Translations under genes and position numbers: made by a program | Source of the DNA: Halostella salina | GTDB lineage: Archaea; Halobacteriota; Halobacteria; Halobacteriales; Natronoarchaeaceae | Direction: 5' to 3' | Length of the DNA: 64,000 bases | NCBI RefSeq assembly: GCF_003675855.1 | Contig: NZ_RCIH01000009.1 | Span: 1-64,000 of the forward strand | In this document: positions 130 to 47,436 of the stretch, piece by piece | Layout of the letters: every line of letters begins with the position of its first letter | Numbering within the stretch: the stretch's first letter is position 1 | Notes under the pieces: model-generated | The model's input: the letters and a program-made list of their open reading frames with translations, nothing else | Databases searched by the model: none | What the model was told of the DNA's origin: nothing

Positions 130-921
130 TTGTTCGGGTTCAAATTCGTGGTCTACTCGACGCTCGCAATCGGCGTCCTCTCGTTTGGTGTCTGGGCACA
201 CCATATGTTTGCGAGCGGAATCGATCCCAGGCTCCGGGCGTCGTTCATGGTAGTTTCTCTCGCAATTGCGGTCCCAACTGCCGTAAAAACGTTCAACTGG
301 ATCGCGACGATGTGGAACGGACGGATCCGCCTCACAACGCCGATGCTGTTCTGCATCGGGTTCGTGTCGAATCTGATTATTGGCGGTATCACCGGCGTCT
401 TTCTCGCAGCAATTCCCATTGACCTCATTCTCCACGACACCTATTACGTGGTTGGTCACTTCCATTACTTCCTCATGGGCGGAACCGTCTTCGCGGTCTT
501 CGCCGCGATATATTACTGGTTCCCGCTCGTCTCAGGGCGAATGTATCAGAAGACTCTCGCAAAGTGGCATTTCTGGTTGAGTATGCTGGGCGTGAATATC
601 ACGTTCTTCGCAATGCTTCTGATGGGGTATCTGGGAATGCCCCGCCGATACGCAACCTACGAATTAACGGTCGGTCCGGTCGATGTACTCACGGCTCTCC
701 ATCAAACGGCTACGCTGGGGGCAGTGATCATCACGGTTGCCCAACTCATCTGGTTCTATAATATGGTCACGTCTTGGCTCGAAGGGCCGCGAGTACCGGA
801 TGCTGATCCATGGAATCTCAAAGAAAATGGGCTCCGAACAGCAGAATGGGCGTGGTTCGAACAAAAACGCGAGACCGCGTTGGCTGACGGGGGCGAGGAA
901 TCGGACGAGGACTGCAAATAA
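130..921 (+). pseudogene. Cytochrome c oxidase subunit I, C-terminal fragment
   Basis: The product is clearly the C-terminal half of a heme-copper oxidase subunit I (membrane, O2 reduction). It keeps the CuB-type His pair in WAHHMF and the heme ligand region GHFHYF, and shows about six hydrophobic segments. The family is usually around 550-600 residues; only about 263 remain. Homology begins abruptly at FGFKF behind a TTG codon. Upstream in frame the reading stays open to about position 46 but is not cox-like, and the N-terminal helices with the first heme a ligand and the CuB His-Tyr site are absent. It cannot form a working oxidase alone. A rearrangement at about position 128, next to an inverted repeat, is the simplest explanation. 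Confidence 0.85.
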
Positions 922-2608: not shown

Positions 2609-3004
2609 TCACTGGCCGGCGTCGTCCGTCGTGTCGTCGATATCCTTCTCAACGATGTCTTTCCGCGAGACAACTTCGATCACCGTCTCCGAACCGATTG
2701 CAATCCCGCCTTCGATATCTTCAACGCGGAGTATCACGTCTTCCGGACTCGTACAGCCGCAGTTGACGAACTCTTCCCACTCGTCGCCGACAGCGACAGG
2801 TCCTGCATGGGACCACCGAAGGTACCGACGGTACGTGTGTTCCGTCATATTCTCCCGGAGCCACTCGCTGTCTGCGACCCACCAGTCATCGGTGTCGTCT
2901 GGATCAGTCTCCGGTGACCGGAACGAAACGAGGACCCGATCCGCCTGATCGTCGACGGAGGCTGGGTCTGTCGTGTTGACATCGTGTCGGACACTCGACC
3001 CCAT
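2609..3004 (-). CDS. Acidic hypothetical protein, third gene of trx operon
   Basis: 131 residues, very acidic at both ends, no membrane segment. It has a WWVADSEWLRENMT segment and a NCGCTSPEDV cysteine motif around residue 80. I do not recognise the family. Its ATG overlaps the trxB stop (TGATG), so it is almost certainly translated with trxA and trxB. The paired cysteines and the context suggest a thiol-linked role, but that is only inference. Confidence 0.7.
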   Translation of the reverse strand: MGSSVRHDVNTTDPASVDDQADRVLVSFRSPETDPDDTDDWWVADSEWLRENMTEHTYRRYLRWSHAGPVAVGDEWEEFVNCGCTSPEDVILRVEDIEGGIAIGSETVIEVVSRKDIVEKDIDDTTDDAGQ

Positions 3005-4044
3005 CAGTCGTCGGCCTCCGTAGCAACTGCTTCAGGACTCTCAGCCGACGCCGCGTCTACTGATTCGAGCCACTCCTCGGCGTCCAGGGCGGCCATGCTA
3101 CCCATGCCGGCGGCGGTGACCGCCTGCTGGTACTCGCGGTCCATCACGTCACCGGCCCCAAAGACGCCGTCGGCGGCCGTCGCCGTCGTCGCCCACGCAT
3201 CCCCTGCGGTGGACGTTTGAACGTACCCGTTGTCGTCGAGGTCAACGTGGGTGTCCCGGAGGAAGTCGGTGTTGGGCTCGTGGCCGATAGCGTAGAACAC
3301 GCCACCAACCTCGACCTCCTCGACTTTGACGTCTTCACCGGCTTCGTACTTCTGGGCAGGGTAGCCATCCAGGTGGAAGACGAGCGTCGCACCGGTCACG
3401 CCTTTCTCCTGAGACCCCTTGATCGCCAAGAGTTCAGTGTTCCAGACGAACTCGACGCTATCGTGATTGCGAGCGCGGTCAGCCATGATTTCCGAAGCTC
3501 TGAGTTCGTCGCGGCGGTGGACGACGGTCACGGAGTCAGCGAACTTCGCGAGGAAGAGAGCCTCTTCCATCGCGCTGTCGCCGCCACCGACGACGAGAAC
3601 ATCGTCACCGCGGTGGAACGCGCCGTCGCATGTCGCACACGTCGAGAGGCCATACCCCATTAATTCGTCTTCTCCCTCGGCGCCGACCCAGCGAGCGCTC
3701 GCTCCCGTCGCGACGATCAGCGCGCGGGTCAGGAGCGACTCACCGGTCGAGATCGACAGCTCCAGCGGCTGTTCGTCGAGCTCCGCAGACTCGATGCTGC
3801 CATGCCGGAACTCGGCGCCGAACTGCTCGGCCTGCTCTTTCCCTCGCTGGATCAGCTCCATCCCACCGACGCCGTCCGGGAACCCGAGATAGTTCTCAAC
3901 GTCGGTCGTCAGCGTCAACTGCCCGCCCGGCTCGTCACCCTCGAGCACGAGTGGGTCGAGATCGGCCCGAGCCGCGTAAACGGCTGCCGAGAGACCAGCA
4001 ACGCCCGAACCCGCGATGACGAGATCCTGTATTTCCTCAGTCAT
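3004..4044 (-). CDS. trxB: Thioredoxin-disulfide reductase
   Basis: Flavoprotein of 346 residues that moves electrons from NAD(P)H through FAD to thioredoxin in the cytoplasm. The FAD motif GSGVAGLSA is at residues 12-20, the redox motif CATCD has Cys136 and Cys139, and the second dinucleotide fold begins VVGGGDSAME (about 151-160). Length is slightly above the usual 310-330 because of an acidic, Ala/Glu-rich C-terminal tail. It follows trxA with no gap (trxA stop 4045, trxB start 4044) and overlaps the next gene by one base. The promoter is the operator site at 4431-4460. Confidence 0.95.
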   Translation of the reverse strand: MTEEIQDLVIAGSGVAGLSAAVYAARADLDPLVLEGDEPGGQLTLTTDVENYLGFPDGVGGMELIQRGKEQAEQFGAEFRHGSIESAELDEQPLELSISTGESLLTRALIVATGASARWVGAEGEDELMGYGLSTCATCDGAFHRGDDVLVVGGGDSAMEEALFLAKFADSVTVVHRRDELRASEIMADRARNHDSVEFVWNTELLAIKGSQEKGVTGATLVFHLDGYPAQKYEAGEDVKVEEVEVGGVFYAIGHEPNTDFLRDTHVDLDDNGYVQTSTAGDAWATTATAADGVFGAGDVMDREYQQAVTAAGMGSMAALDAEEWLESVDAASAESPEAVATEADD

Positions 4045-5113: not shown

Positions 5114-6148
5114 TCAGTCAACGATAATGGAATCAGTGTCGGCAGAGGTCGTCCGAAGCTCCTGGATGGAGCTGTAAACGACCGCACTACTGACGAGGAG
5201 TGCCGCACCGAGGATGATGACCAGTGCGACTGAGTCAAGGAATGGCATCTCGATGACACCGCCGATTTTGCGCACGGCGACGGCAATCGCTCCCAGCAGC
5301 AGCATCACGCCGAAGTACACCTTGATTTCATCCTCGTCGACGATACTCGTCGCCGCAGCGCCGACCCGGGCCCCGAGGGCGCTTCCCGCGAGCAGCGGAG
5401 CGACGATCGCGAGATCAACCGCACCGTCGAGTGCATAGAGGAAGCTCCCGATTCCGCCGGAGAAGACGATCTCGAACAGATCGGTTCCGACCGCGACGGG
5501 GACGGGGACGCCCACGAGGTAGAAGAGGGCAGGCATCCGGATGAAGCCGCCACCCACACCGAGGAAGCCGGACAGCAGTCCGGTGGCGAACGCGACGGCG
5601 AGGATCATCCACAGCGAGACCGTCACGCCGCCGCGAAGCGTCATCATCGGCGGAACCTCGTACGACTGGATCTGCTTCGCGATATCAGGGATTTCATCCG
5701 GGTCCAACTCACCATCGACATCGGCATCGTGGCTGATGCCGCCGCCATCGTCTGTGAGCGCTTGGCGGGTAACGAACAGGCCGATACCACCGAGCAGGCC
5801 AACGTACGCAACGCTGACCACGGTATCAGCCAATCCGAGGTCCTGCAGTAAATGAAGACCCTGCTTCCCGACTTCGATGCCTGCCGTGGTGCCCGCGATC
5901 ATCAGCACCCCGAGCTTGTAGTCAACTTGCCCGAGATCGCGGTGTTTCAGCGTCGCGATGACCGACGTTCCAAACACGAAGGCGAGCCCGGATGCGACGG
6001 CGACGTCGGTCTTGTAACCCATCACGAGCAGCGCTGGCGTGACGAGGAACGACCCGCCCATTCCGAAGAACCCGAACAGGAGGCCGATGAGCAGGCCGAA
6101 CCCGGTGAACATCACGAGTAGTGATGCAGCGATGCCGAAGATCTCCAT
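5114..6148 (-). CDS. TauE/SafE-type sulfite/anion exporter
   Basis: Membrane transporter of about 345 residues with two repeated halves separated by a long acidic loop (about residues 135-165, DGGGISHDADVDGELDPDEI). Glycine motifs typical of TauE/SafE are seen in each half: LLFGFFGMGGSFLVTPALL near the N-terminus and LLSGFLGVGGGFIRMPALF near residue 190. GTG (6151) and ATG (6148) are adjacent possible starts; ATG is used here because it overlaps the stop of the upstream small membrane gene. Second TauE/SafE gene of the window and divergent in sequence from the one at 1634, so the two probably differ in substrate or in induction. Confidence 0.88.
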   Translation of the reverse strand: MEIFGIAASLLVMFTGFGLLIGLLFGFFGMGGSFLVTPALLVMGYKTDVAVASGLAFVFGTSVIATLKHRDLGQVDYKLGVLMIAGTTAGIEVGKQGLHLLQDLGLADTVVSVAYVGLLGGIGLFVTRQALTDDGGGISHDADVDGELDPDEIPDIAKQIQSYEVPPMMTLRGGVTVSLWMILAVAFATGLLSGFLGVGGGFIRMPALFYLVGVPVPVAVGTDLFEIVFSGGIGSFLYALDGAVDLAIVAPLLAGSALGARVGAAATSIVDEDEIKVYFGVMLLLGAIAVAVRKIGGVIEMPFLDSVALVIILGAALLVSSAVVYSSIQELRTTSADTDSIIVD

Positions 6149-6300
6149 CACTGGTCACCTCGAATTGCAGCGATGATCTTCGAACCGACAAGCTTTTCGA
6201 GTGCTCCATACCCAATATAGAGCACGACTGCCTCCAGTAGCACGATTCCGATAACGGTCGCTGCTTGTCCCCATCCGCTCAGCGATTCAACACCGGTCAT
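6148..6300 (-). CDS. Small one-helix membrane protein upstream of TauE
   Basis: A 50-residue reading frame starting MTGVESLSGWGQ, with one strong hydrophobic helix (about residues 14-33, VIGIVLLEAVVLYIGYGALE) and a basic end before GDQ. Its TGA overlaps the exporter ATG, so the two are translationally coupled. It has the look of a small accessory or stabilising subunit for the exporter, perhaps the haloarchaeal DUF7512 type, which I name only tentatively. GATTAAAC (6323-6330) could be a proximal promoter; the operator site is further upstream at 6381-6410. Confidence 0.7.
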   Translation of the reverse strand: MTGVESLSGWGQAATVIGIVLLEAVVLYIGYGALEKLVGSKIIAAIRGDQ

Positions 6301-8805: not shown

Positions 8806-9918
8806 TTACTCGGCCGCACAGTTGTTCGGGCCCAGTTCCAGCTCGGCCAGTTCGTCCTCTGGGACCGACTCCCGGCCGACGTTCGTCCGCTTGACGCGTT
8901 CGAAGTTCGGCGGGTGGTCCGGAATGTCCGACGCGAGCTCCTCAACGAACGCCTCCCGGTTGCGGCCGAGGTCATCGTTCCGTTCTCTGACCTCCGCGAG
9001 CGTGGCAGCCACCGGCGGTTCAGGCGAGCCCGGATCGTGCGCCGGCAGGATCAGGGCGTCATCAGGGCGGTCCAGCAACCGCTGGAGGCTCTCGTACAGC
9101 GTCGCGGCGTTTCCCTCGACGTCGGAGTCCTCAATACCGGCCTCGACACCGAGTTCGACGCGGCCGACGCTATCGTGGAACAGGGTGTCGCCGGTCAGAA
9201 GCGCCGCGCCCTCGAGGTCGAAGGAAACGCTTCCTTCGCTGTGGCCGGGCGTGTGGACGACATCGATGTCCAGGCTCCCGACCGTCACAGTCTGTCCATC
9301 TCCGACCGGCGTCGCGTCGAGTGCGAGCGCATCCTTCGGGTGGAGATAGTACGGAACGTCGTGGCGGTCAGCTAGGGCTGCCGCGCCTGAGACGTGATCC
9401 GCGTGGGCGTGCGTGTCGAAGACAGCAACGAGATCGGCGTGGAACTCCTCGAGGACAGTGTCGTACTCGTCGAGATAGTGTGACGGGTCGAAGACGGCAG
9501 CTTCGCCGTCCGAGACGAGGACGTGAGAGAGACAGCCTTTCCCCGGCCGGGCAACTTGCACGAGGGTGTCATCACTGTCTACGGGGACGTTCGCGTGCCG
9601 GTGGACGCGGCTCCAGCCGTTCATTCCGTCCGTCAGGGTCACCGCGTCGTATCCCAGTTCCCGGAGGACTTCTGTCGCAGTCTGAGAGACGACGCCTGCC
9701 GCACAGACAGTAACGATTTGTTCGTCACTGGGCAGGTCAGAGAGCGGCTCCATGGCTTGTTCCGGGTCGTCAGTCAATTCGTCATAGACATCGACGTGAC
9801 GGCTTCCCGGGATGTGCCACTCCTCGAAGTCCGCTTGATGGCGAATATCGAGCACAAGTGGCCCGTCATTATCATCCTGCAACTGTTCACCGAGTTCCTC
9901 GGGCGATATCTCCTGCAT
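8806..9918 (-). CDS. Rhodanese-metallo-beta-lactamase fusion (persulfide dioxygenase-like)
   Basis: 370 residues. The N-terminal rhodanese domain (about 1-108) has the active Cys72 in VTVCAAGVVS. The C-terminal MBL domain (about 115-300) has the metal motif THAHADH (His170, His172, Asp174, His175), HTPGH (His226) and GDTLF (Asp244), as in ETHE1-type persulfide dioxygenases that oxidise glutathione or other persulfides to sulfite. Known bacterial fusions usually have the domains in the opposite order. The tail ELGPNNCAAE is shared with the paralogue at 12964-14157. Upstream of an MFS gene; divergent from a Cys-rich HTH-10 regulator. Confidence 0.88.
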   Translation of the reverse strand: MQEISPEELGEQLQDDNDGPLVLDIRHQADFEEWHIPGSRHVDVYDELTDDPEQAMEPLSDLPSDEQIVTVCAAGVVSQTATEVLRELGYDAVTLTDGMNGWSRVHRHANVPVDSDDTLVQVARPGKGCLSHVLVSDGEAAVFDPSHYLDEYDTVLEEFHADLVAVFDTHAHADHVSGAAALADRHDVPYYLHPKDALALDATPVGDGQTVTVGSLDIDVVHTPGHSEGSVSFDLEGAALLTGDTLFHDSVGRVELGVEAGIEDSDVEGNAATLYESLQRLLDRPDDALILPAHDPGSPEPPVAATLAEVRERNDDLGRNREAFVEELASDIPDHPPNFERVKRTNVGRESVPEDELAELELGPNNCAAE

Positions 9919-10757: not shown

Positions 10758-11933
10758 CTACAACAGCAGCGTGCCAGCTGCATACGCGAGCACGAACGCA
10801 AGGAGGAACGACCCCATCCACGCTCCAACGGTCATACCGATTTTCCGGGCATCCACCGCTTCCCGACCCCCCACCGCAGCCCCGCTCCCGATAATGGCGC
10901 TGACGACGATCTCGTTGAATGAGACCGGGACGCCCAGCAGGACGGCCAGCTGTGCGATCAGGAACGACGGCACGAGCGCTGAGATCGAGCGGCGCGGCCC
11001 GAGCGACGAGTAGTCCTGTGCGAGCGACTTGATCATCCGGGGCGCACCCGTCCACGAGCCGACGAGCATCCCGAGGCCGCCGCCGACGAGCACGGCGAAC
11101 GTCGAGACCATCCCGACCTCATCGAGCAGCGGGAGCAACGGCCCGACGGCGAGCCCGACTTGGCTCCCACCTGCGGAGAACGCCACGAGCGATCCGAGTG
11201 CCAATAGTACCCGACGCAGGCCGCCGTGTTTGTCACGGCTGACGTCCCACCAAACGACGGCCGCGACAGCCAGCGCGGCGAGGCCGGTAATGCCGACCGC
11301 CGAGACAAGTCCGTCGACTGCCAGCACCCGCTGACCGAGACCACGGACAGTTCCAGCCGCACTCCCGTCACCGAGAAAGCTGAACTGGACGTTCACGAGG
11401 ACGGCCCCGACGAGGCCGGCGAGGACGGGAATACTGCAGCGTTCGGGGACGTCGGGACGCGGAAGGAGGCTCGCGATAGTGAACGCGATGCCGCCACCGA
11501 CGAACGGCGTCAGCACCCAGACGGCGGCGATCTGCTGGTACTTTGCCCAGACCGGCGTCCCACCGAGCGCGAGACCGACGCCGATGACGGCGCCCGTCAC
11601 GGTGAACGCAGTCGCGATCGGATAGCCCGTCGTGATGCCGACCGCCATCAACCCCGCGCCCAATACGAGCACGAGGATAACGCCGGCGACGGGCAGGCTG
11701 ATGCCGCCGACGAGACCGCTCCCGACGGCTTCCGAGACGTTGCCACCCTGGGTAACGGCACCGGCGAAGCCGAAGACTCCCACGAGTAGCGCGGCGCGCA
11801 TCGTCGCGATGGCGTTCGCTCCAACGGCAGGGGCATACGGCGTGGCGCCGCTTGAGCCGGCGCCGATGACCCACGCCATAAACAGGCTGGCAAGCGCTGC
11901 ACCGGCGAAGAGGGCGATGAGAGCGGGGTCCAT
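10758..11933 (-). CDS. PiT-family anion permease (phosphate or sulfate/thiosulfate)
   Basis: 391-residue membrane protein of the inorganic phosphate transporter family, with the duplicated signature regions seen as AVGANAIATMRAALLVGVFG (about residues 37-56) and GSWTGAPRMIKSLAQDYSSL (near 290). Members called CysP carry sulfate or thiosulfate instead of phosphate. It is the last gene of an operon with a rhodanese-MBL fusion and split YeeE proteins, which favours a sulfur oxyanion; no PhoU or Pst gene is nearby. Sequence alone cannot separate the two substrates. Confidence 0.85.
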   Translation of the reverse strand: MDPALIALFAGAALASLFMAWVIGAGSSGATPYAPAVGANAIATMRAALLVGVFGFAGAVTQGGNVSEAVGSGLVGGISLPVAGVILVLVLGAGLMAVGITTGYPIATAFTVTGAVIGVGLALGGTPVWAKYQQIAAVWVLTPFVGGGIAFTIASLLPRPDVPERCSIPVLAGLVGAVLVNVQFSFLGDGSAAGTVRGLGQRVLAVDGLVSAVGITGLAALAVAAVVWWDVSRDKHGGLRRVLLALGSLVAFSAGGSQVGLAVGPLLPLLDEVGMVSTFAVLVGGGLGMLVGSWTGAPRMIKSLAQDYSSLGPRRSISALVPSFLIAQLAVLLGVPVSFNEIVVSAIIGSGAAVGGREAVDARKIGMTVGAWMGSFLLAFVLAYAAGTLLL

Positions 11934-11942
11934 AGAAATGGG

Positions 11943-12401
11943 TTAGTCTGCGCCCGTCGCGGCGGTGTCACGCGCCTGACGCCGGCTCCGCCAGTATCCC
12001 TGGGCGTAGGCGCCGACGAACATGCCGGCGAGCGCCCAGAGGATGGTGACGTTGCCGACGCCGAGGCTCGCGTAGGCGGCGCCCGGGCAGATGCCGGAGA
12101 GCCCCCAGCCGACGCCGAAGACGGCACCGCCGACCAGGACGTTCCGGTCGAACGGCTTCAGCCGGCGCTCGTAGGGGTCGCCCGTCAGGGGCGCAGCGTC
12201 CCGAATCCGGGGCAGCAGGGCGAACGCGATCCCGGAGACGATGGCGGCCCCGAACATCACGAACGGGAGGCCGAGATCCTCGAACTGGAGGAAGTTCAGC
12301 ACGACCTCCGGGCGCGCCATGTGGCTGAACCCGAGCCCGAACCCGAACACGATGCCGCCGACGAAGATCAGCGGCTTGAACAGCGGGTGGCGGTCGCTCA
12401 T
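11943..12401 (-). CDS. DUF6691/YeeE-YedE C-terminal half, thiosulfate transporter subunit
   Basis: 152-residue membrane protein with four hydrophobic segments and the conserved Cys in GLSGICPGAAYASLG (about residues 107-121), the motif of the second half of YeeE/YedE (TsuA) thiosulfate transporters. In TsuA both halves are one chain; here they are two genes whose stop and start overlap by four bases (ATGA at 12398-12401). It starts MSDRHPLFK, and the reading frame open upstream is only a shadow of the YeeE gene. Confidence 0.85.
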   Translation of the reverse strand: MSDRHPLFKPLIFVGGIVFGFGLGFSHMARPEVVLNFLQFEDLGLPFVMFGAAIVSGIAFALLPRIRDAAPLTGDPYERRLKPFDRNVLVGGAVFGVGWGLSGICPGAAYASLGVGNVTILWALAGMFVGAYAQGYWRSRRQARDTAATGAD

Positions 12402-12955
12402 GGGCTCACCCCCAGCGCGGCGACGACCTGTGCCGTGCCGATCGCCACGGTCAGGAACGTCAGCACGCCGACCAGCGATGTCTTCGACGCCGAACCGACG
12501 CCACAGACGCCGTGCCCGGACGTACAGCCCTTGCCGATCCGGGTGCCGATGCCGACGAGGATGCCGCCGACGAACAGCCGCCACGGCTGGACGTCAGTCT
12601 GCCAGAGCGTCACGCCGGCGACTTCGTAGAGCTGGCCGGTCGTCCCAGGCTCGTACAGCGAACTCGTGACTAGGCCGGACTGGAACGTCGCCGCGAACGC
12701 CAGCCCGCCGAGGATGATGCCGGCCGTGAACACGAGCCGCCAGTCGCGCGAGCCGACGTACTGCTGGAAGCGGGACTGGTCGGAGACGTACGACAGCGTC
12801 GACTCCAGGAACGTACTCGCCCCGGCTGGGATTCCCGTCCCGATGTAGATCAGGACGGTGCCGAGCCCAACGAGCAGTCCGCCGACGGCGTAGCGACTGA
12901 TCCCGTTGGGGAACAGGTCGGCAGCCGCTTGGAGCAGTACTGGGTCAGCAACCAT
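12398..12955 (-). CDS. YeeE/YedE N-terminal half, thiosulfate transporter subunit
   Basis: 185 residues, five hydrophobic segments. The conserved cysteine motif of YeeE/YedE proteins is present as GKGCTSGHGVCG (about residues 141-152). In the bacterial thiosulfate channel TsuA such cysteines hand S2O3 along the pore. Partner of the DUF6691 gene next to it; they presumably assemble in the membrane. Eight bases after the rhodanese-MBL gene in the same operon. Confidence 0.87.
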   Translation of the reverse strand: MVADPVLLQAAADLFPNGISRYAVGGLLVGLGTVLIYIGTGIPAGASTFLESTLSYVSDQSRFQQYVGSRDWRLVFTAGIILGGLAFAATFQSGLVTSSLYEPGTTGQLYEVAGVTLWQTDVQPWRLFVGGILVGIGTRIGKGCTSGHGVCGVGSASKTSLVGVLTFLTVAIGTAQVVAALGVSP

Positions 12956-12963
12956 CGGCGTCG

Positions 12964-14157
12964 TCAGTCACCCGCGAGGGAGTCCTGGCTGGCTGCGCAG
13001 TTGTTCGGGCCGAGCTCGAGCGTGAACGCTTCGTCGTCGTCGACGGCGTTCTGGCCGAGGTTCGTCGCGATGATGTCCTCGTAGTTGGCCGGCCGCGGCG
13101 GCATATCCGAGAGGATCAGGTCGACGAACTCGTCCTCGTTCATGGTGAGCGCGTCCATCTCCTCGACGAGCTCGCCGATGGGCGCCGTGAAGGTGCCGTC
13201 GGAAGCGGGTTCCGCGGCGTCGCTGAAGTGCGCACCGCCGATCAGCGTGTCGTCGGGCAGCGTCAGCACGCGCTCCTGTAAGGACTCGTAAAGCATACGC
13301 GCAGCATCCGGCGCACCCTCGTCCCCTTCCTCGAGGTCAGGGCGAGCGACGCTCTCGATGAACAGCCCGTCGCCGGTCGCGAGCAGGCTGTCGTCGACGA
13401 GGTACGAGGTCATTCCGGTCGTGTGACCCGGCGTGTACACGGCCCCGATGGTGGCGTCACCGACCTGGAACGTGTCGCCGTCCGCGGCCGTGGTCAGCTC
13501 GTCCGCGTAGGTGACGCCGCGGTCGACCGCCGCCTCGGGAATGACGCCCTCCACGCCCTCGGCGTCCAGGTCGCGAACACCAGAGATGTGATCGGCGTGA
13601 ACGTGCGTGTCCAGCGCGTACTGCAGGTCGACACCAAGGTCGTCAGCGTCCGCGAGGTAGCGGTCGGTGAACGCCCGCAGCGGGTCGATGATCGCGGCCT
13701 CACCGTCATCGTACAGCAGGTAGCCGAGACAGCCCGAGGAGGGACGCTGGTACTGCAGCAGCGTGCCGGCGCCGTCGTAGCCGGTGACCTCGACGGCCTC
13801 GTAGATGCTCGCCCAGCCGTTCATGCCGTCCTCAAGGTGGTCGACGGCGTACCCGCGCTCGGCGAGGGTGCCCGCGACATACTCGCTTGCGCCGCCCTTC
13901 GCACACAGGACGGTCACCTCGCGGTCGTCAGGGATCTGCTCGAGGATGTCCTCATCGATGTCGTCCTCGAGGAACTCGAAGTACGGGACGTTGATCGACG
14001 TGACGTTCTCGCCGTCGATACGCCACTCCTCGTAATCCGATTGCATGCGCGCGTCGAGGAGCGTGACCTCCTCGCCGGCGTCGATACGATCCTTCAGCGT
14101 CTCCGGGTGGACTGAGTACACGTCGACGTCCGGAGTCGGGAAGTCGTCAGCGTTCAT
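12964..14157 (-). CDS. Rhodanese-metallo-beta-lactamase fusion (persulfide dioxygenase-like)
   Basis: 397 residues. Rhodanese domain about 1-118 with active Cys85 in VTVLCAKGGAS; MBL domain about 130-330 with THVHADH (His185, His187, Asp189, His190), YTPGHTTG and TGDGLF. C-terminal ELGPNNCAAS matches the other fusion at 8806-9918. Predicted to take sulfane sulfur from thiosulfate or a persulfide and oxidise it to sulfite. First gene of a four-gene operon that also encodes split YeeE transport proteins and a PiT permease. The promoter with the island operator is at 14190-14228; start ATG 14157 is about 36 bp from the TATA-like box. Confidence 0.9.
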   Translation of the reverse strand: MNADDFPTPDVDVYSVHPETLKDRIDAGEEVTLLDARMQSDYEEWRIDGENVTSINVPYFEFLEDDIDEDILEQIPDDREVTVLCAKGGASEYVAGTLAERGYAVDHLEDGMNGWASIYEAVEVTGYDGAGTLLQYQRPSSGCLGYLLYDDGEAAIIDPLRAFTDRYLADADDLGVDLQYALDTHVHADHISGVRDLDAEGVEGVIPEAAVDRGVTYADELTTAADGDTFQVGDATIGAVYTPGHTTGMTSYLVDDSLLATGDGLFIESVARPDLEEGDEGAPDAARMLYESLQERVLTLPDDTLIGGAHFSDAAEPASDGTFTAPIGELVEEMDALTMNEDEFVDLILSDMPPRPANYEDIIATNLGQNAVDDDEAFTLELGPNNCAASQDSLAGD

Positions 14158-14406: not shown

Positions 14407-14652
14407 ATGAGTGCTGAATTCGACATCACGGAGACACTCGACGTCAAAGGCGCATCGTGCCCCATGCCAGTAGTGAAGACGAAGTCCGCTATCGACGACC
14501 TCGTGGAAGGTGAAATCCTCGAAGTGCTGGCGACCGACCCCGGAAGTATGAGCGACATCGACGGCTGGGCGTCCGGGACTGACGGCGTCGAGCTCGTCGA
14601 CCAGGAGGAAGGCGACGACGTGTTCAAACACTACGTCCGCAAGACGGAGTGA
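14407..14652 (+). CDS. tusA: TusA-type sulfur carrier
   Basis: 81-residue SirA/TusA fold protein that carries persulfide sulfur on Cys18 in the signature ASCPMPV. The start ATG 14407 fits both family length and the leaderless promoter. The stop overlaps a GTG and lies two bases before the ATG of the DsrE-like gene, so they are co-translated. TusA-DsrE pairs relay sulfur from rhodaneses in sulfur oxidisers. A second TusA is at 21778-22014. Confidence 0.92.
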   Translation: MSAEFDITETLDVKGASCPMPVVKTKSAIDDLVEGEILEVLATDPGSMSDIDGWASGTDGVELVDQEEGDDVFKHYVRKTE

Positions 14653-14654
14653 CG

Positions 14655-15227
14655 ATGAGTACGGACACATCCGACGCGTCGGCTGGCGAGGCGCCCTCGC
14701 GTGCGGAGCTGGCCGCACGCGTTGACGAACTGGAGGACGCCCTCGCCGAAGCCACGAGCGAGGACGACGGCAAGAAGATGAGCATCATCGCGACGAAGGG
14801 GACGCTGGACATGGCGTACCCGCCGCTCATCCTTGCGAGCACCGCGGCCGCCTTCGGCTACGAGGTCACGGTCTTTCACACGTTCTGGGGGCTGGACATC
14901 CTTCACGAGGAGCGCTCGAAGAACCTCAAGCTCAGCTCCGTCGGCAACCCCAACATGCCTGTACCGAACGCGGTCGCCGCGCTTCCGGGGATGGACCGCG
15001 TGACGACGAAGATGATGGAGCGGAAGATCGAGGACAACGACACCGCAACCATCGAGGAACTCATCGAGACGAGCCTCGACATGGGCGTGGAGTTCCAGGC
15101 CTGTCAGATGACCATCGAGCTGATGGACTACGACGAGGACGACTTCTACGACGGCGTCACCACCGGCGTCGGCGCGGCGACCGCCCTCCAGGACATGGCC
15201 GACGCCGACATCCAGCTCCTCGTCTAA
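14655..15227 (+). CDS. DsrE/DsrF-like sulfur relay protein
   Basis: 190 residues: an N-terminal coiled-coil segment (about 15-40, RAELAARVDELEDALAEATS) then a DsrE-like Rossmann domain with Cys150 in VEFQACQMT, the position of the sulfur-accepting Cys in DsrE2 proteins. Hydrophobic stretches around YPPLILASTAAAFGYE match the family. Role: accept or deliver sulfane sulfur with TusA in the cytoplasm. In-frame GTG 14649 is an alternative start; ATG 14655 is preferred. Confidence 0.88.
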   Translation: MSTDTSDASAGEAPSRAELAARVDELEDALAEATSEDDGKKMSIIATKGTLDMAYPPLILASTAAAFGYEVTVFHTFWGLDILHEERSKNLKLSSVGNPNMPVPNAVAALPGMDRVTTKMMERKIEDNDTATIEELIETSLDMGVEFQACQMTIELMDYDEDDFYDGVTTGVGAATALQDMADADIQLLV

Positions 15228-15233: not shown

Positions 15234-15455
15234 ATGAACAAACTCGAGAATCCGATTCCCCAGATTGTCGATGCCGTCGCGGAGGCAGCGGGCGTCGAGC
15301 CAGTCACACTCGATCCGCCGCTAGCCGAGGTCGTCGATCCGGATGCGCTCGAAACGTTGGTCGAGGATTCGAGGGCGTCTGACCTCGAAGTGCGATTCGC
15401 GTATCGTGGTCACGATGTCGTCGTCGACGACAGCGGTCGTGTACAGGTCGACTGA
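15234..15455 (+). CDS. HalOD1-type output-domain protein
   Basis: 73-residue protein made only of a HalOD1-like domain: VDAVAEAAGVEPVTLDPPLA, VVDPDALETLV and a final Gly-His/Val pattern (YRGHDVVVDDSGRVQV). HalOD1 is a haloarchaeal signalling output domain with unknown biochemistry. It starts seven bases after the dsrE stop, so it is likely the third gene of the tusA operon. Confidence 0.75.
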   Translation: MNKLENPIPQIVDAVAEAAGVEPVTLDPPLAEVVDPDALETLVEDSRASDLEVRFAYRGHDVVVDDSGRVQVD

Positions 15456-15602: not shown

Positions 15603-16598
15603 TCAGCCCCCGTAGCCATCACCCTCTATTGGCCCGCTGAATACGCCGTAGAGGAACTTGAAGTACCACAGTACCAGCAGTAACACCGGGAATCCGAGGA
15701 CAGTTACGAGGTTCAGCGCCAGCGGCGATACGACCGCTTCCCGAATCAGCAGCCCGGTCGGCGGATAGATCGTCGGGTACAGCAGAATTGCGACCAGAAT
15801 CGTCAACAGTGTGGGGAGCGCCAGCGCGCTCGCCAGCCAGACCCGGTACTGGCCGCGTTTGGCCAGCAAGCTCCCGCCCAGCCCCACGACGACCGAGAGA
15901 GCGACGACCGCGGCAACGGGAAGCGAGAGGACCGTGTCGGCAGCCCCGCCCGCGTCGGTCAGGACGACAGTTCCAAGCAGCACGACCACCCCAACAAGGT
16001 ACGCCAGTGTTGCACCGATACCGTACGAACGCAGTTCCGACGCCAGGCCGGGCTCGGTTTTGGCCGCGAGGAACGCCGCACCCGTGACGACCGAGACGGC
16101 GACCAGCCCGACGCCAGTCAGCACCACTGGCAGCGTCGCGCCGCCGAACAGCCAGCGGCCGGCGAGCATCCCGAACAGCAGCGGCGCGACCACGCTGCCG
16201 CCGACGAAGGCGTAGTCTGCGTAGCGCTTCCATCGTTGTTCGTCGCGCTGCTCGCGAAGTTCCGGGCCAAGTCCCCGGAACACTAACGCGAGGACGAACC
16301 CGATTGCGAGCAGGTAGTTGTCCGCGAGGAGGCGGGAGTAAACCCGCGGGAACGCCGCCAGTAGCATCGTCCCGAAGGCGACCAGCCACACCTCGTTAGC
16401 GTCCCAGACCGGTCCGAACGCCGACAGGAACGTCTCCCGCTCCTGTTCGTCCGTTCGGGTCGCATACAGCATTCCGATGCCGAAGTCGAATCCGTCGAGG
16501 ACGACGTACATCCCCAGTGCGAACAGCACGGCACCAAACCATATCTCCGGCAGCGACTCAACGAGGTAGGAGTCGACGGGTATCAGCTGGTCAGTCAT
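15603..16598 (-). CDS. cydB: Cytochrome bd quinol oxidase subunit II
   Basis: 331 residues with eight or nine membrane helices. N-terminal LPEIWFGAVLFALGMYVVLD and GFDFGIGML are conserved in subunit II, as is VWDANEVWL near residue 60. With CydA it oxidises quinol and reduces O2 without pumping protons. Its ATG lies eight bases inside the end of cydA. In bacteria bd oxidases tolerate sulfide well, which fits the sulfur genes on both sides. Confidence 0.93.
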   Translation of the reverse strand: MTDQLIPVDSYLVESLPEIWFGAVLFALGMYVVLDGFDFGIGMLYATRTDEQERETFLSAFGPVWDANEVWLVAFGTMLLAAFPRVYSRLLADNYLLAIGFVLALVFRGLGPELREQRDEQRWKRYADYAFVGGSVVAPLLFGMLAGRWLFGGATLPVVLTGVGLVAVSVVTGAAFLAAKTEPGLASELRSYGIGATLAYLVGVVVLLGTVVLTDAGGAADTVLSLPVAAVVALSVVVGLGGSLLAKRGQYRVWLASALALPTLLTILVAILLYPTIYPPTGLLIREAVVSPLALNLVTVLGFPVLLLVLWYFKFLYGVFSGPIEGDGYGG

Positions 16599-18078
16599 CG
16601 TCGCTCACCACCGGGATCGGACCGCGCCAGCGGCCCTCATTCGACTCGCGGACACCGAGCGTCTGGAGTTCTTCCCGGACGAGCCACTTCAGAACGTACA
16701 GGGCCGTCAGAATCAGGCCGACGTAGACGACGACGAACACGAATAGGGTCAGTGTCGCTTCCGTCCCGGTTAGCGTCGAGGAGACCGCCTCGCTGGTCCT
16801 GAGTTCGTCTTGGATGACCCACGGCTGGCGGCCGATCTCGGTGACGTACCAGCCGGTGAGCAACGCGGCGTAGCCGAGTGGCGATGCAGCGATCATCGCC
16901 TTCAGATAGCGTGTGCTGTCAGACAGCCGCCCGCGGTACATGAGGTACCCGCCCCATAGCGCCAGCCCGATGAACAGGAACCCGAGCCCGACCATGAAGC
17001 GGAACGACCAGAACACGAGTGCTACGGGGGGGTTCTCCTCGTACTCGTTCAGTCCGATGACCTCGGCGTCGAAGTCCCCGCCACTGGCGAGGAACGACCC
17101 GACTGCGGGGAGGCTCACGGTGAAGAGGTTCTCGGCTCGCGGGTCGGTGAGTGCGTCGGGGGACTTCGGGAACGCGAGCAGGTGCAGGTCGGCCTGACCC
17201 GTCTCGTAGTGGGCCTCCATCGCGGCGAACTTCTGTGGCTGGGTGTCCGCGACGTGGCGGCCGTAGGCGTCGCCGTGGACCGCCTGGAACGGTGCGGAGA
17301 CGATCAGGAGTACGACAGCCAGCTTGAGTGCGGTGTTCCAGGCTTCAGCGTCGGGCTTTTTCCAGACGATGTACGCCGAGACGCCCGCGACCAGCAGTGC
17401 GACTGAGATCACCGACGCGTTCATCATATGAACGTACATCCAGGGCATTCGCGGAGTGAGGAACGCGGCGACCGGGTCGGTTAGTTTGGCGACTTCCATC
17501 CCGTTGCGGGTGACCATCTCGTAGCCCCGTGGGGTCTGCATCCAGGCGTTGACGATCAGGATCCAGAACCCCGACAGCCAAGCGCCGAAGCCAACGAGTA
17601 CCGACGAGATGATATATGTTCGATCCGTAACGCGGTCGCGGCCGTACAGCAACACCCCGAGGAAGACGGCCTCCAGGAAGAACGCCATCTTCGCTTCGAA
17701 CGCCAGTGGGCCGCCGATCAGTTCACCGGCAACCTCGGCGAACTGTGGGAAGTTCGTGCCGAACTGGAAGCTCATCGGGATCCCGGTGACTGTACCCATC
17801 ACGAAGCCGGCGGCGAACACCTTCACCCAAAACGAGCGCAATCGGGCATACTGCTTCTCGTTCGTCCGTACGTCTTTCCACGTGAAGTAGATAATAAAGG
17901 GTGCAAGCCCGATCGAGAGAGACGCGAAGATGATGTGAACGGAGATCGTCCATCCGAACTGCATGCGGCTCGCGATCTCTGGGGAGAGCAACGCCACCCA
18001 CCCCAGGTCGACGGTGGACAGCAGTGTCGTTAGACCCATACACCAAATGATACGGGACATTAGGTCATGAGTAGTCAC
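16591..18078 (-). CDS. cydA: Cytochrome bd quinol oxidase subunit I
   Basis: 495 residues, nine membrane helices. MQFGWTISVHIIFASLSIG contains the His ligand region of subunit I, and GWYVTEIGRQPW (about residue 410) is the family signature near the quinol site. The periplasmic Q-loop between helices 6 and 7 looks short. Start ATG 18078 is used; MSRIIWCMG six codons later is possible. No copy of the island operator is seen upstream; AT-rich DNA with AAATAAAAATTTTG on the minus strand (18106-18120) is a likely promoter. Confidence 0.93.
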   Translation of the reverse strand: MTTHDLMSRIIWCMGLTTLLSTVDLGWVALLSPEIASRMQFGWTISVHIIFASLSIGLAPFIIYFTWKDVRTNEKQYARLRSFWVKVFAAGFVMGTVTGIPMSFQFGTNFPQFAEVAGELIGGPLAFEAKMAFFLEAVFLGVLLYGRDRVTDRTYIISSVLVGFGAWLSGFWILIVNAWMQTPRGYEMVTRNGMEVAKLTDPVAAFLTPRMPWMYVHMMNASVISVALLVAGVSAYIVWKKPDAEAWNTALKLAVVLLIVSAPFQAVHGDAYGRHVADTQPQKFAAMEAHYETGQADLHLLAFPKSPDALTDPRAENLFTVSLPAVGSFLASGGDFDAEVIGLNEYEENPPVALVFWSFRFMVGLGFLFIGLALWGGYLMYRGRLSDSTRYLKAMIAASPLGYAALLTGWYVTEIGRQPWVIQDELRTSEAVSSTLTGTEATLTLFVFVVVYVGLILTALYVLKWLVREELQTLGVRESNEGRWRGPIPVVSDDD

Positions 18079-18412: not shown

Positions 18413-19549
18413 TCAGGTCCACTCCGAGTCCAGCGCGTCGAGTAACTGATCGATCTCAGCCCGGGTGTTGACCGCGTGGACCGACGCGCGGACGGCCTCC
18501 GGCGTCGGCAAGGCACGAACGACGATACCCTCTGACGCGAGTCTGTCGACCGTCGCTTCAGGGTCATCAACGTCGATGGTCACGAGCCCCGACTCGGGAT
18601 TCCCCGGGCTGTACAGTCGCTCGTCGGGAATACCGTCGGCCAGCCGGCCCGCAAGCTTTTGAATTCGATCCGCGATACGGTCGACCCCGACCTCGTCGAT
18701 CACGTCGATCGCCTCGGCCAGGGCGACGTGGGGGGCCGGGTTCGACGATCCAACCTCGAATCGTCGGGCGCCGGCGGCGAACTCGTAGGGATCCGCCATC
18801 GGTGTCTCGACGCTTCGGTATCCCACTGTGGACGGCTGGAGCGACTCAGCGACCTCACGATCGACGTACAGGAAGCCGCCACCCCACAGGCCCAGCAGCC
18901 ACTTGTGTCCCGCCGCCGCAACGACGTCCGCGCCCCACTCGGAGACATTCATTGGAAGCTGACCCGGCACCTGAACGGCATCAACGAGCGCAAGCGCACC
19001 GGCCTCGTGCGCGATGTCAACGAGCTCAGTGACGGGTAATCGCGTCCCATGTGTCCATGTGACAGCGCTGAAACACGCCAGCTCCGCGTCATCGACGGCC
19101 AGGGCGAAGTCGTCGAGATCAACGCGGCCGCCCTCGGTCTCGACGACTCGGACCTCAACACCCTCGCGTTCGAGGCGCTGCCACGGAAGCATCCCCGCAG
19201 GGTGTTCAAGATCGGTCCGGACAACGGTATCGCCGGGCGACCAGTCGATCGCGTTCGCGACAGCGTTGATGCCTGCGGTCGTACTTTCCACGAGTCCCAA
19301 CTCGTCAGCCTCCGCGCCGACGAAAGTGGCGACGCGCTCCCGTACTCGGTCGTACGCATCGAACGCGCCTTCGTAGGGGTCGTTGCGAGTGCTCGCCTCG
19401 TACTCGTGGGAGCGAACGAACTCGTCGGCAGCTTCAACGACGTACCGTGGACTCGGGCCGTGAGCACCGAAATTCAGGTAGATGTCTTCGTCCAGTGCGG
19501 GCGTGTCAGCCCGAAGTTCGGTAGGAGTCATCAGTCGGTCTCTCGGCAT
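18413..19549 (-). CDS. PLP class V aminotransferase/cysteine desulfurase-like
   Basis: 378-residue fold-type I PLP enzyme. The PLP Lys is in AAGHKWLLG; LVDAVQVPGQLPMNV carries the Asp that holds the pyridine ring, and GVVESTTAGINAV-like sequence (LGLVESTTAGINAV) binds phosphate. It resembles cysteine desulfurase or isopenicillin-N-epimerase-type enzymes; a flexible-loop active Cys like that of IscS is not evident, so desulfurase activity is uncertain. The start overlaps the stop of the thioredoxin gene (ATG at 19547-19549, with MTPTEL at 19531 as alternative). Co-transcribed with that thioredoxin. Confidence 0.85.
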   Translation of the reverse strand: MPRDRLMTPTELRADTPALDEDIYLNFGAHGPSPRYVVEAADEFVRSHEYEASTRNDPYEGAFDAYDRVRERVATFVGAEADELGLVESTTAGINAVANAIDWSPGDTVVRTDLEHPAGMLPWQRLEREGVEVRVVETEGGRVDLDDFALAVDDAELACFSAVTWTHGTRLPVTELVDIAHEAGALALVDAVQVPGQLPMNVSEWGADVVAAAGHKWLLGLWGGGFLYVDREVAESLQPSTVGYRSVETPMADPYEFAAGARRFEVGSSNPAPHVALAEAIDVIDEVGVDRIADRIQKLAGRLADGIPDERLYSPGNPESGLVTIDVDDPEATVDRLASEGIVVRALPTPEAVRASVHAVNTRAEIDQLLDALDSEWT

Positions 19550-19887
19550 TAGTCGCTGTACGTCCCGATCAAGTCACGCAGTGACTGTTCAGTTTGGCCA
19601 CCCCGGAGCTGTTTCACCGGCTGGCCATCCACGAACAGAACGAACGTGGGAGTACTCTGGGCACCGAACTCGATTGCGATCTCGAGGTGAGACTCGATAT
19701 CGATCGTCGCGACCGCCGCATCCGTGTCCGCTGCAATCGTTTCGAGCATCGGCTTCATCCGCTGGCACGTACCGCACCACTCCGTGTAGAACTCCACGAG
19801 AGTGACGTCGGTGTCTCCGACGACCGATTCGATGTCGCCATCCCCGAGCGAAATCACACTCTCCGTCTCCGCTATCTGAGCTGTCAT
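19549..19887 (-). CDS. Thioredoxin-family protein (WCGTC)
   Basis: 112 residues, thioredoxin fold, active site EWCGTC (Cys38, Cys41), cis-Pro in STPTFVLF. The Thr in place of the usual Pro between the cysteines should raise the redox potential relative to the WCGPC thioredoxins at 4045 and 25915. First gene of an operon with a PLP enzyme. The ATG 19887 is about 28 bp from the TATA-like TTAATAAT, giving a leaderless transcript. Confidence 0.92.
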   Translation of the reverse strand: MTAQIAETESVISLGDGDIESVVGDTDVTLVEFYTEWCGTCQRMKPMLETIAADTDAAVATIDIESHLEIAIEFGAQSTPTFVLFVDGQPVKQLRGGQTEQSLRDLIGTYSD

Positions 19888-20006: not shown

Positions 20007-20633
20007 TTACTGGGATTCGTCGTTGGTCCGTTCCCGGCCGATCGCTCCTGCCAGCTCCAGCAGGTATCCGAGTCCGTACTGGACATCAGGGTCGCGTAGC
20101 CCTCGGAGCAAGCCGACGGCCCCGACCTGCTCTGGCGGTTCCTGCTCCGCCTCACCGACGCTCGACAGCAGCGTTTCGATACCGTTACGAGTGGCATCTT
20201 CGGACGCCGTCTGTGCGACCTCGCCGAGCGCGGCGCCCGTCCCGGCCAGTGACGTGACCATCTCGTCATCGAGCGCCGCAGTCCCTAGCGACGCGACCTC
20301 GGCGAGTTCAGCCAGTTCGTCGAGTGTCCCGGTTTGCTGGAGGATAAGCAGCGTGTCTAACGCGTCTCGAAGTTCGTCGCCGTTCTCACCAACAGCCTCG
20401 GCCAACGCCACTGTTTCGTCAGTTGCTAGCCCATCTGCGGACTCAGCGAGTGTCGCTCCGGTGGCCGAGAGTTCGCGGACCATCTCGTCGGAAAGCGCGC
20501 TCTCCCCTAGTGAAAGTACCTCCAACAGTTCGTTGACAGCGTCGAGATGCTCCACGAACTCGGCGACTGCCTCGGGGTTCTGTTCGATCGCAGTCTCGAG
20601 GTCAGTTGGCTCGGCTGCCTCTCTCTCGGACAT
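20007..20633 (-). CDS. DUF1641 protein
   Basis: 208 residues, highly acidic, helical, with a repeated ELS.LGESALSDEMVRELS pattern seen three times (for example LGTAALDDEMVTSLAGTGAA), and a C-terminal GLLRGLRDPDVQYGLGYLLE, the DUF1641 signature. DUF1641 proteins are encoded beside sulfide:quinone oxidoreductase-like flavoproteins and formate dehydrogenases; the function is unknown. Two bases after the flavoprotein gene in the same operon, so probably a partner or regulator of that enzyme. Confidence 0.85.
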   Translation of the reverse strand: MSEREAAEPTDLETAIEQNPEAVAEFVEHLDAVNELLEVLSLGESALSDEMVRELSATGATLAESADGLATDETVALAEAVGENGDELRDALDTLLILQQTGTLDELAELAEVASLGTAALDDEMVTSLAGTGAALGEVAQTASEDATRNGIETLLSSVGEAEQEPPEQVGAVGLLRGLRDPDVQYGLGYLLELAGAIGRERTNDESQ

Positions 20634-20635
20634 GG

Positions 20636-21781
20636 TCAGAGCAACCCTCGCGCAGTCAGCCAGTAGGACTCGTTGTACGCCAGTTTCGACCAGTGCAGTT
20701 TCTGCGAAGGCGGTGCTGGAGACGGCGGGCTCTCGTAGTCGAACTCGACGAACGACGCCGCGTTCAGCCCCGTCTCGATGAAACAGAGCGTCTTGCCGTC
20801 GTAGGTCGCCGTCGGCGGACGACCACGAAGCTCGCTGGCGAGGCGCTGGCCGACAACGCTGGCCTGGTAGTGCGCGACGCTGCCCGCGTTCGGGACACCG
20901 GTGTCAGCGGTATCACCGAGCGCGTACACGTTCTCGGCAGCCTCGGCCTCGAGCGTGTGTTTATCGACGTCGACCCAGCCATCGTCGCCCAGGCCAGCCT
21001 CCTCGATCAGGTCGATACCGGCGTGAGGCGGGATCGTCACGAGGAGGTCGTAGTCGAGGTCGGTTCCCTCCATCGACGTTATCGTCTCTGCCTCGGGGTC
21101 GACCGACTCGGCGTTGAAGAGCGTCTCGACGTTGATGCCGCGGTCGTCCATAATCGGCTGAGCCCACTCGGCGATATGTGGGTTGCCGTGGACGCGCTGG
21201 ACCGGGTACGTGTAGGTGATGTCGACGTCGTCCCGGAGGCCGCGCTCGCGGAACCAATCGTCGGCCATGAAGACGAACTCGAGTGGCGCTGCCGGACACA
21301 TGTGAGGGGTCCCGATGACGCTCAACACCAGTTCGCCCTCCGTGAACTCCAGTAGTTCCTCGCGGAGGGCAGTCGCTCCCGACTCACTGTAGTAGTTGTA
21401 TCCGCCCTCAGCGAGGCCGGGTATGTGACTAGGTTCTAGCGTCGATCCGGTCGCCAACACAAGATAGTCGTAGTCGACCGATGTGGAGCTACCACTGAAC
21501 TGGAGCTGCTGGGACCCGGTGTCGATATCGGACACGCGGTCGATCTGCAGGTCAATCGCGTCGTCGACGAGTTCGCTGAGCGGACGACGGCCGTCGTCCG
21601 GCTCACGCTGGCCGAACGGCACGTACAGCCAGACCGGCTTGTAGACATGATCTGGGTCGTCGTTGACTAGCGTGACGCGGACATCGCCGGCGGCGATTTC
21701 CGGTTTGAGTCGGTCAGCGAGGTCGTTCGCGAGGACTGTTCCACCGGTCCCGCCGCCGACGATGACGACGTGCTCGGTCAT
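20636..21781 (-). CDS. Sulfide:quinone oxidoreductase-like flavoprotein
   Basis: 381 residues. N-terminal FAD motif VIVGGGTGGTVLAN (about 6-19), second motif LVLATGS (about 107-113), and C-terminal YALGDTADTG holding the FAD Asp. The conserved SQR/FCSD cysteine region reads GTPHMCPAAPLEF with Cys162; one further Cys is in GKTLCFIETG. Canonical SQRs have three cysteines, so this is a non-canonical type and its acceptor and donor are open. C-terminal SYWLTARGLL may be a membrane-binding helix. ATGA overlap with tusA; DUF1641 follows. Confidence 0.87.
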   Translation of the reverse strand: MTEHVVIVGGGTGGTVLANDLADRLKPEIAAGDVRVTLVNDDPDHVYKPVWLYVPFGQREPDDGRRPLSELVDDAIDLQIDRVSDIDTGSQQLQFSGSSTSVDYDYLVLATGSTLEPSHIPGLAEGGYNYYSESGATALREELLEFTEGELVLSVIGTPHMCPAAPLEFVFMADDWFRERGLRDDVDITYTYPVQRVHGNPHIAEWAQPIMDDRGINVETLFNAESVDPEAETITSMEGTDLDYDLLVTIPPHAGIDLIEEAGLGDDGWVDVDKHTLEAEAAENVYALGDTADTGVPNAGSVAHYQASVVGQRLASELRGRPPTATYDGKTLCFIETGLNAASFVEFDYESPPSPAPPSQKLHWSKLAYNESYWLTARGLL

Positions 21782-44551: not shown

Positions 44552-45451
44552 ATGTCTAGTAACAACGCTAGCGGAAAGGTCGTTACGGTGGATGAACAGG
44601 CATTCGAGAAAGCGGGCGGTCAGGCGGTCGATGAAGACGGCTTCCCGGTCGTCGACGAGACGCCGGAGTTCGAGGCGGCGGTCGAGCAGGAGACGCAGGC
44701 GAAGGTGGATGCGAACCACCCGGACGGGATCGCGGACACGAGCAAGGACCGGATTCACGGTGTCAGCCTCGAACAGGAGGAGCGCATTCGGGCGCGGGAC
44801 GCCGAACTGGAGCGCATCAGTGCCCAGGCCGAGCTGGGCACGCAGGACGGTCGGGAGCAGCGCACGCGAGCGGTCGCCGCACAAGGGAGTAAGCAGCGCC
44901 GGCGGGAGTTCCAGAAACGGGCCGCGAGCGTGGACCCGATGGCCGACCCCGACCGGGATGATCCCCGGGCAGCACTCTCCCAGGATGAACTGGCGACAGT
45001 GAACACGGAGGCAGACCGACTCGCGACGCGGGTGGATGGCTGGTCGCGTGCGGCGATCAGTCGACGCCTGGCCGACGCAGCCGTCGACGGCCGGGACCTG
45101 ACGAGTGCGGTCGTGCGGGTGTTCGAGGAGTTGCAGACGGCGCCGGGGCAGGTGGTTCCAATCGGGAAGCTCGAGGACGTCGATCGCAAAGAAGTGAGTG
45201 TCGAAGGTCAAATCGAGGTGCTTTGGGATAGTGACTCGCCAGCCATCGCTCAAGTTGGCCTGATCGCAGACGAAAGCGGGAAAACGAAGGTGACGATCTG
45301 GGAGAAATCGAATGCCCCCTGGGTCGAAGAAGGTGAACGGGTGCGCATCCACGGAGCAGCGAGAAATTGGTACGAAGGACGCGTTTCACTAGCCGTCACT
45401 GGCTGGTCAACCCTTCATTTCCCGGAGCGTGGCCGCTGGTGGGACGAATAG
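44552..45451 (+). CDS. RPA-like single-stranded DNA-binding protein (OB fold)
   Basis: 299 residues: acidic N-terminal half with Gln/Glu/Arg-rich helices, a helical region ISRRLADAAVDGRDLTSAVV (about 170-190), and a C-terminal OB fold with DRKEVSVEGQIEVLWDSDSP, AQVGLIADESGKTKVTIWEK and GERVRIHGAARNWYEGRVSL. OB proteins of this kind are common on haloarchaeal plasmids and resemble RPA/SOSS-B units. Likely binds ssDNA in replication or repair of the element. The ATG follows directly on a hairpin. Confidence 0.8.
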   Translation: MSSNNASGKVVTVDEQAFEKAGGQAVDEDGFPVVDETPEFEAAVEQETQAKVDANHPDGIADTSKDRIHGVSLEQEERIRARDAELERISAQAELGTQDGREQRTRAVAAQGSKQRRREFQKRAASVDPMADPDRDDPRAALSQDELATVNTEADRLATRVDGWSRAAISRRLADAAVDGRDLTSAVVRVFEELQTAPGQVVPIGKLEDVDRKEVSVEGQIEVLWDSDSPAIAQVGLIADESGKTKVTIWEKSNAPWVEEGERVRIHGAARNWYEGRVSLAVTGWSTLHFPERGRWWDE

Positions 45452-45612
45452 CCAATCGGAGCAGCCTTCTTTTTTTGCTGTGTGCCGGACCGACCCTGAC
45501 CCCGCCGCCCCACCCTCCGCTCCGTGCTCGCTTCGCTGCGCGCGCAGCCACAACCACGAGACCCGGTCTGAGATTTATCCCTGAAATCGGGGGAAACAGT
45601 GCGCGACCGGGC

Positions 45613-45644
45613 GTGTTTGTCCCACCCCACGAGGGGTGCGGGCG
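45613..45644 (+). promoter_or_regulatory. Leader stem-loop box C
   Basis: GTGTTTGT then CACCCC (45623-45628) / GGGGTG (45633-45638) with loop ACGA, 23 bp or more before ATG 45667. Shares the CGAGGGGTGCGGG-type core with boxes A and B. Confidence 0.5.
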
Positions 45645-45666
45645 TGCCCAACGCTCGGAGCTACGC

Positions 45667-46800: not shown

Positions 46801-46812
46801 CCGCTCAGAGAG

Positions 46813-46840
46813 GTGTTGCTCGCCCCCACGATGGGGGGCA
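46813..46840 (+). promoter_or_regulatory. Leader stem-loop box D
   Basis: GTGTTGCTC then GCCCCC (46822-46827) / GGGGGC (46834-46839) with loop ACGATG, 26 bp before ATG 46866. Confidence 0.5.
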
Positions 46841-46865
46841 GGGACAGCAGCGAATCCGTTCCACT

Positions 46866-47081: not shown

Positions 47082-47191
47082 TAGAACAGTTCAGCCTACG
47101 TTGTGCATAAGCGCTTACTCAAATCGAAGTGCATAATCAATAAGTATATGAGGTAAGTAAGTGGGTTTGAAGTAATGGAGGGACCAATCTG

Positions 47192-47434: not shown

Positions 47435-47436
47435 AG

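Follow-up and report, generated by a model that had tools for sequence, protein, structure and literature searches.

The window analysed here is a stretch of 64,000 nucleotides from Halostella salina that carries a sulfur island, spanning from a TauE/SafE transporter gene near 5.1 kb to a sulfide:quinone oxidoreductase (SQR) gene at 21.8 kb. On the minus strand, the TauE/SafE transporter (5114-6151; PF01925, 141.5 bits) is accompanied by a persulfide-dioxygenase-like rhodanese-MBL fusion (8806-9918; PF00581 and PF00753), a PHO4-family permease (10758-11933; PF01384), two halves of a YeeE/YedE-type sulfur transporter (11943-12404, DUF6691, PF20398 and PF04143; 12398-12955, PF04143 at 27.9 bits with a cut-off of 27), and a second persulfide-dioxygenase-like rhodanese-MBL fusion (12964-14157; Pfam), with ETHE1 and BpPRF among its nearest solved structures. 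The plus strand encodes the sulfur carrier TusA (14407-14652; PF01206, 76.3 bits) and a DsrE2-type sulfurtransferase (14649-15227; PF13686, 178.5 bits). Past the cytochrome bd genes cydAB, the minus strand encodes a class V PLP enzyme (18413-19549; PF00266), a thioredoxin (19549-19887; PF00085), a DUF1641 protein whose gene is the partner of the SQR gene (20007-20633; PF07849, 54.7 bits), and SQR itself (20636-21781). An MFS permease and a Usp protein also lie within the island. The earlier note on this DNA had placed cydAB between the tusA-dsrE and thioredoxin-PLP units, and Pfam confirmed this arrangement (tusA-dsrE2 at 14407-15227, PLP-thioredoxin at 18413-19887). A small HalOD1 protein (15234-15455) directly follows dsrE2 and faces cydB. 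Farther along, at 45367-52344, the window holds an HNH-repeat endonuclease, a C5 cytosine methylase, and a PDDEXK_7/DUF2357 protein adjoining an AAA ATPase, a group suggestive of restriction or defence. An Rfam search of window positions 1-30000 gave no match, and a tRNA search of the window found none.

The SQR gene is the genome's only match to either of two SQR queries, and the nearest solved proteins are SQORs. Its closest counterpart is human SQOR (6oi5/8dhk), with which it shares the FAD motif and both catalytic cysteines; C162 and C333 align with these residues, which we take to be C201 and C379 in the human numbering. The protein scored 336 bits against NF049943, the NCBIfam model of the type III selenoprotein subtype, below the cut-off of 525, and it differs from these known proteins also in the pairing of its gene with DUF1641. 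A flavoprotein at 3004-4044 was rejected as the SQR, being of the thioredoxin reductase type (TIGR01292, 322 bits, cut-off 343). The rhodanese-MBL fusions carry the HxHxDH metal motif in the MBL domain in addition to the rhodanese domain, although against NF040641, the curated bifunctional Blh model, they reached 42 and 51 bits versus 625. They share the HxHxDH MBL domain with ETHE1 (4chl) and BpPRF (5ve3) and have a rhodanese domain as in PRF, but the window rhodanese is N-terminal and the similarity amounts to only 74 and 67 bits in the one of the two window proteins that was compared. Alignment of the PLP enzyme, a member of the SufS family, with SufS (5b7s) revealed that the SufS-type catalytic cysteine loop is absent, and therefore we rejected its naming as a cysteine desulfurase of the SufS/NifS kind; it may be a C-S lyase instead.

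The cytochrome bd genes are cydA, encoding subunit I (16591-18078, minus strand; PF01654, 465.9 bits), and its partner cydB, encoding subunit II (15603-16598, minus strand; PF02322, 214.5 bits), which comes after cydA and overlaps it by 8 bases. This cydA is the sole cydA of the genome and lies about 2 kb from the SQR-DUF1641 pair. Since many close CydA homologues are called at 482 aa, translation possibly begins with the ATG at 18039, which gives 482 aa, instead of the GTG at 18078. Alignment with solved bd oxidases showed that the heme ligands are kept (H48, H217, and M362, presumably H19, H186, and M393 in E. coli CydA numbering), as is the quinol site, with K283 and E288 of the Q-loop (which we take to be Lys252/Glu257 in E. 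coli) and GWxxxExGRQPW at residues 409-420. Geobacillus 5doq, E. coli bd-II 7ose, and bd-I 6rko resemble the window CydA in heme ligands, GRQPW, and the Q-loop Lys/Glu pair, and the predicted product of cydAB is a canonical-looking, quinol-oxidising cytochrome bd. It differs from the canonical enzymes in being archaeal and in being set in a sulfur island. Because a 334-base gap with an AT-rich stretch lies 5' of cydA, cydAB is probably its own transcription unit and not part of the SQR transcript. As a separate observation, a stretch of some 70-80 bases preceding the ATG of cydA looks conserved by eye in 14 close-type loci (L016-L026, L028, L033, and L073) out of 19 loci inspected, some of them closely related to one another; the window, L030, and L031 do not share this conservation, and the stretch may be a regulatory leader of a cydAB cassette.

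At the left edge of the window lies the 3' remnant of a COX1 gene, encoding heme-copper oxidase subunit I (130-921, plus strand), which matches positions 237-436 of PF00115 only, with the interruption near base 130. Because the window and contig C9 share their first base, a mere contig edge was conceivable. We rejected such an artefact. Bases 1-130, upstream of the COX1 piece, contain in-frame stops and form a repeat with 100% identical copies in contig C7, at whose end it takes up 130 bases, and in contig C14, which begins with 127 bases of it; similarity to the other COX1 genes of the genome begins at base 131, where the repeat gives way to homology, and PF00115 found no separate 5' half across the 3.74-Mb, 99%-complete host assembly. 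A C10 match (19.6 bits, below the cut-off) was rejected as the missing half, since it is an intact 468-aa frame. The COX1 gene is therefore interrupted and not merely cut by the window, and the truncation claimed previously was borne out. The repeat is probably the end of a mobile element that broke both COX1 and the assembly. A hairpin-like inverted sequence, seen in it by eye, suits an element end.

The significance that had been attached to this break for bd did not hold. A search for intact heme-copper oxidases gave three strong COX1 genes elsewhere in the genome (505, 500, and 451 bits) plus two weaker full-length matches (309 and 181 bits). The view that bd replaces a heme-copper oxidase lost through the left-edge break agrees with the COX1 piece being really broken, but because three strong intact COX1 genes remain, bd is an addition and not a replacement. 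The strong form of this view is already refuted, and we regard it as very improbable altogether.

We assessed the association of bd with sulfide oxidation genes in a class sample of 116 haloarchaeal genomes, of which 64 contain cydA and 113 contain PF00115. In three of them (G001, G007, and G092) cydA is present with no PF00115 match, and bd may be their sole oxygen reductase. Distances were counted from 72 cydA genes in 62 genomes to 84 DUF1641 places in 71 genomes, both identified by Pfam, with fragments dropped (five cydA rows from G095, one from G009, and one from G050). The results showed that, with the window included, 11 of the 72 cydA genes lie within 5 kb of DUF1641, 16 within 10 kb, and 23 within 20 kb. 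The random expectation within 10 kb, supposing 3.4-Mb genomes, is 0.45 against the 16 observed. None of the 150 best-scoring COX1 matches listed, 80 of them in DUF1641 genomes, lies within 5, 10, or 20 kb of DUF1641. Within DUF1641 genomes, cydA is found within 10 kb in 16 of 60 cases versus 0 of 80 for COX1 among the best 150 (Fisher, P = 3.5e-7, kinship ignored), and the remaining 44 of the 60 cydA genes are farther than 10 kb away. At the level of whole genomes, 50 contain both cydA and DUF1641, 12 cydA only, 21 DUF1641 only, and 33 neither, an odds ratio of 6.5 with kinship ignored and with genomes holding cydA fragments alone scored as lacking cydA.

Neighbourhood DNA gave a similar picture. 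SQR or DUF1641 was found within 10 kb in 17 of 73 cydA loci versus 1 of 60 COX1 loci (Fisher, P = 1.9e-4), and any queried sulfide or sulfane-sulfur gene in 29 of 73 versus 2 of 60 (Fisher, P = 2.4e-7), the 29 sulfur-linked cydA being spread over 24 of the 62 genomes. Counted among the 73 cydA are the window gene and both copies of each of L121, L123, and L140, with one more G095 copy (L140) than in the count of 72; for COX1, 42 of the 62 genomes with cydA contributed one random locus each, and 18 further loci were added. Because the neighbourhood queries included reference proteins from the cydA loci L079, L053, and L071, this count is biased toward finding genes near cydA, a bias from which the Pfam count of DUF1641 distances is free. 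These findings indicate that haloarchaeal bd is recurrently linked to SQR and its partner gene in a manner that COX1 is not.

Peroxiredoxin (PF00578) and universal stress genes are also recurrent neighbours, as expected if bd and the sulfur genes were gathered as accessory genes for low oxygen or oxidative stress, with bd serving as oxygen scavenger or peroxide defence and no quinol passing from SQR to bd. Against this explanation, none of the accessory genes used as controls lies within 10 kb of DUF1641: 0 of 35 for ureC (3 of 35 within 20 kb, all from one genus), 0 of 48 for gvp, and 0 of 30 for ArsD, the last likewise within 20 kb. These controls are small, since just 19 ureC, 19 gvp, and 22 ArsD rows fall in DUF1641 genomes; before this count, 14 urease rows were removed as weak, three tandem ureC pairs were reduced to one copy each, and gvp clusters with several rows lost the extra ones. 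We consider this explanation unlikely.

The cydA genes linked to SQR or DUF1641 belong to 12 of the 31 cydA genera and to 5 families, and we therefore rejected the possibility that the linkage is due to a few related genomes. In the cydA tree (a quick search with SH-aLRT only) they fall to either side of the midpoint. On this tree the linkage state changes 15 times, compared with 14-17 times in 20 shuffles, and thus the linkage was gained and lost often. Such frequent gain and loss fits repeated assembly, and fits loose ties just as well. Four named loci (L069, L071, L079, and L081) carry tight same-strand SQR-DUF1641-peroxiredoxin-cydAB arrays, and L094 carries a tight same-strand SQR-DUF1641-cydAB array; representatives of these arrays were checked. 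L085 has the same array order, but its cydA is 397 aa and there is no cydB match. Two cydAB copies lie close by in opposite directions in L081, L121, L123, and L140, and in L121 SQR-DUF1641 is situated between them.

We then considered the origin of the window cydAB. In a genus-level sample of five genomes, one of them 89% complete, the window-type cydA was found in the host genome only; two of the other four have a cydA at 61-62% identity and two have none. One genome with such a cydA, G052, has no queried sulfur gene in the 20 kb read around it, and the distant-type SQR query, which gives 205 bits with the window SQR, yields nothing above 26% identity there. DNA-level comparison of the island covered seven loci at five distinct places. 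Related islands, with main blocks at 79-89% DNA identity, occur in Halobacterium sp. KA-4 (L030) and in G066 (L162). The G066 island contains SQR. In KA-4, whose island resembles that of the window more than any other among the named loci, the 21.4 kb covered contain no SQR homologue. With L015 and L031, the latter being the same place as L148, the window shares DNA homology only in cydAB, so cydAB appears also to travel as a cassette.

A named set consisting of the best 80 of 175 relatives' cydA loci was compared as well; 8 of the 32 closest loci, by unrounded identity, are shorter than 20 kb. Among these 80, the close cydAB type at an identity of at least 82% accounts for 33 loci, and island sulfur genes are present in two of the 33 (L028 and L030), which are also the only two of the 80 with TusA homologues. 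The stretch covered around cydA contains an SQR homologue in 13 of the 80, in 10 cases at 32-38% identity to the window SQR. Linkage was not scored for weak homologues of NifS (L018), HTH (L023), thioredoxin (L024), and Usp (L045). Since the window's type is usually unlinked in this set, the pairing of cydAB with sulfur genes in the window may be young or due to chance. Further cases of the close type linked to sulfur genes come from the class sample (L119, L153, L156, and L162); the two samples are not independent, because 19 locus pairs overlap.

These results bear on a serious rival, in which cydAB encodes a general high-affinity oxidase for low oxygen on a small mobile cassette that landed in the sulfur island by chance, with no functional meaning. 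It is consistent with the homology confined to cydAB in L015 and L031, with the two linked loci among the 33, with the absence of phylogenetic persistence of the linkage in the class sample, and with cydAB having its own upstream region. However, across the class the linkage greatly exceeds the chance level and hardly occurs for COX1, and the close type is linked in the four class-sample loci named above as well. For the window cydAB we regard chance insertion as a real possibility, though not a probable one.

That bd resists sulfide and heme-copper oxidases do not, as the earlier note said of bacteria, has been published for bd and bo3 of E. coli: sulfide up to 58 uM leaves bd unaffected, and the IC50 of bo3 is 1.1 uM (PMC4815019). 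The window enzyme belongs to the same family and the same use is proposed for it, whereas the E. coli findings cited here concern resistance to added sulfide (PMC4815019) and the neighbourhood in the window suggests coupling to sulfide oxidation. In sulfur-respiring natronoarchaea, bd is encoded but reportedly was never detected in proteomes of three conditions (PMC6176080), which argues against a general role. In Halobacterium salinarum, phototrophic cells are reported to have slightly less cydA1 than aerobic ones (PMC2020435), and one cydAB copy of Sulfobacillus acidophilus reportedly rises on sulfur (PMC5114278). Among the matches listed, in a search whose coverage mostly left out subscription papers, we found no description of haloarchaeal cydAB-SQR linkage.

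We propose, with a probability of roughly 0.5, that cydAB was gained with or into an island for sulfide and sulfane-sulfur oxidation and acts as the sulfide-tolerant oxygen end of this pathway. SQR would convert H2S to persulfide and reduce the quinone pool, and cytochrome bd would pass electrons from the quinol to O2 under sulfide levels that block the heme-copper oxidases. The persulfide would be converted to sulfite by the MBL-rhodanese proteins, with sulfane sulfur carried by TusA, DsrE, and thioredoxin and sulfur oxyanions moved by the TauE and YeeE-type proteins. We infer this electron path, the sulfide tolerance of the window bd, and its co-regulation with the sulfur genes from gene content and context. 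The earlier suggestion that the island lets cells respire O2 during sulfide oxidation is thereby upheld in part: the recurrent bd-SQR linkage and the conserved catalytic residues speak for it, the contrast drawn from the COX1 break fails, and the probable separate transcription unit of cydAB and the usually unlinked close type in the named loci speak against it. The functional idea is plausible, and the statistical base of the linkage is new relative to the earlier note.

Haloarchaea are mostly regarded as aerobic heterotrophs. More tentatively than for the window itself, and at just under even odds, we suggest that they repeatedly built a dedicated aerobic sulfide-oxidising chain, from SQR-DUF1641 through quinone to bd, out of different cydAB lineages and SQR operons, with bd as an exchangeable sulfide-tolerant oxidase and DUF1641 as a partner of the module. 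If bd is their sulfide-tolerant oxidase, DUF1641 would gain a context in haloarchaea, and many of them could respire oxygen at the sulfidic interfaces of brines and mats.
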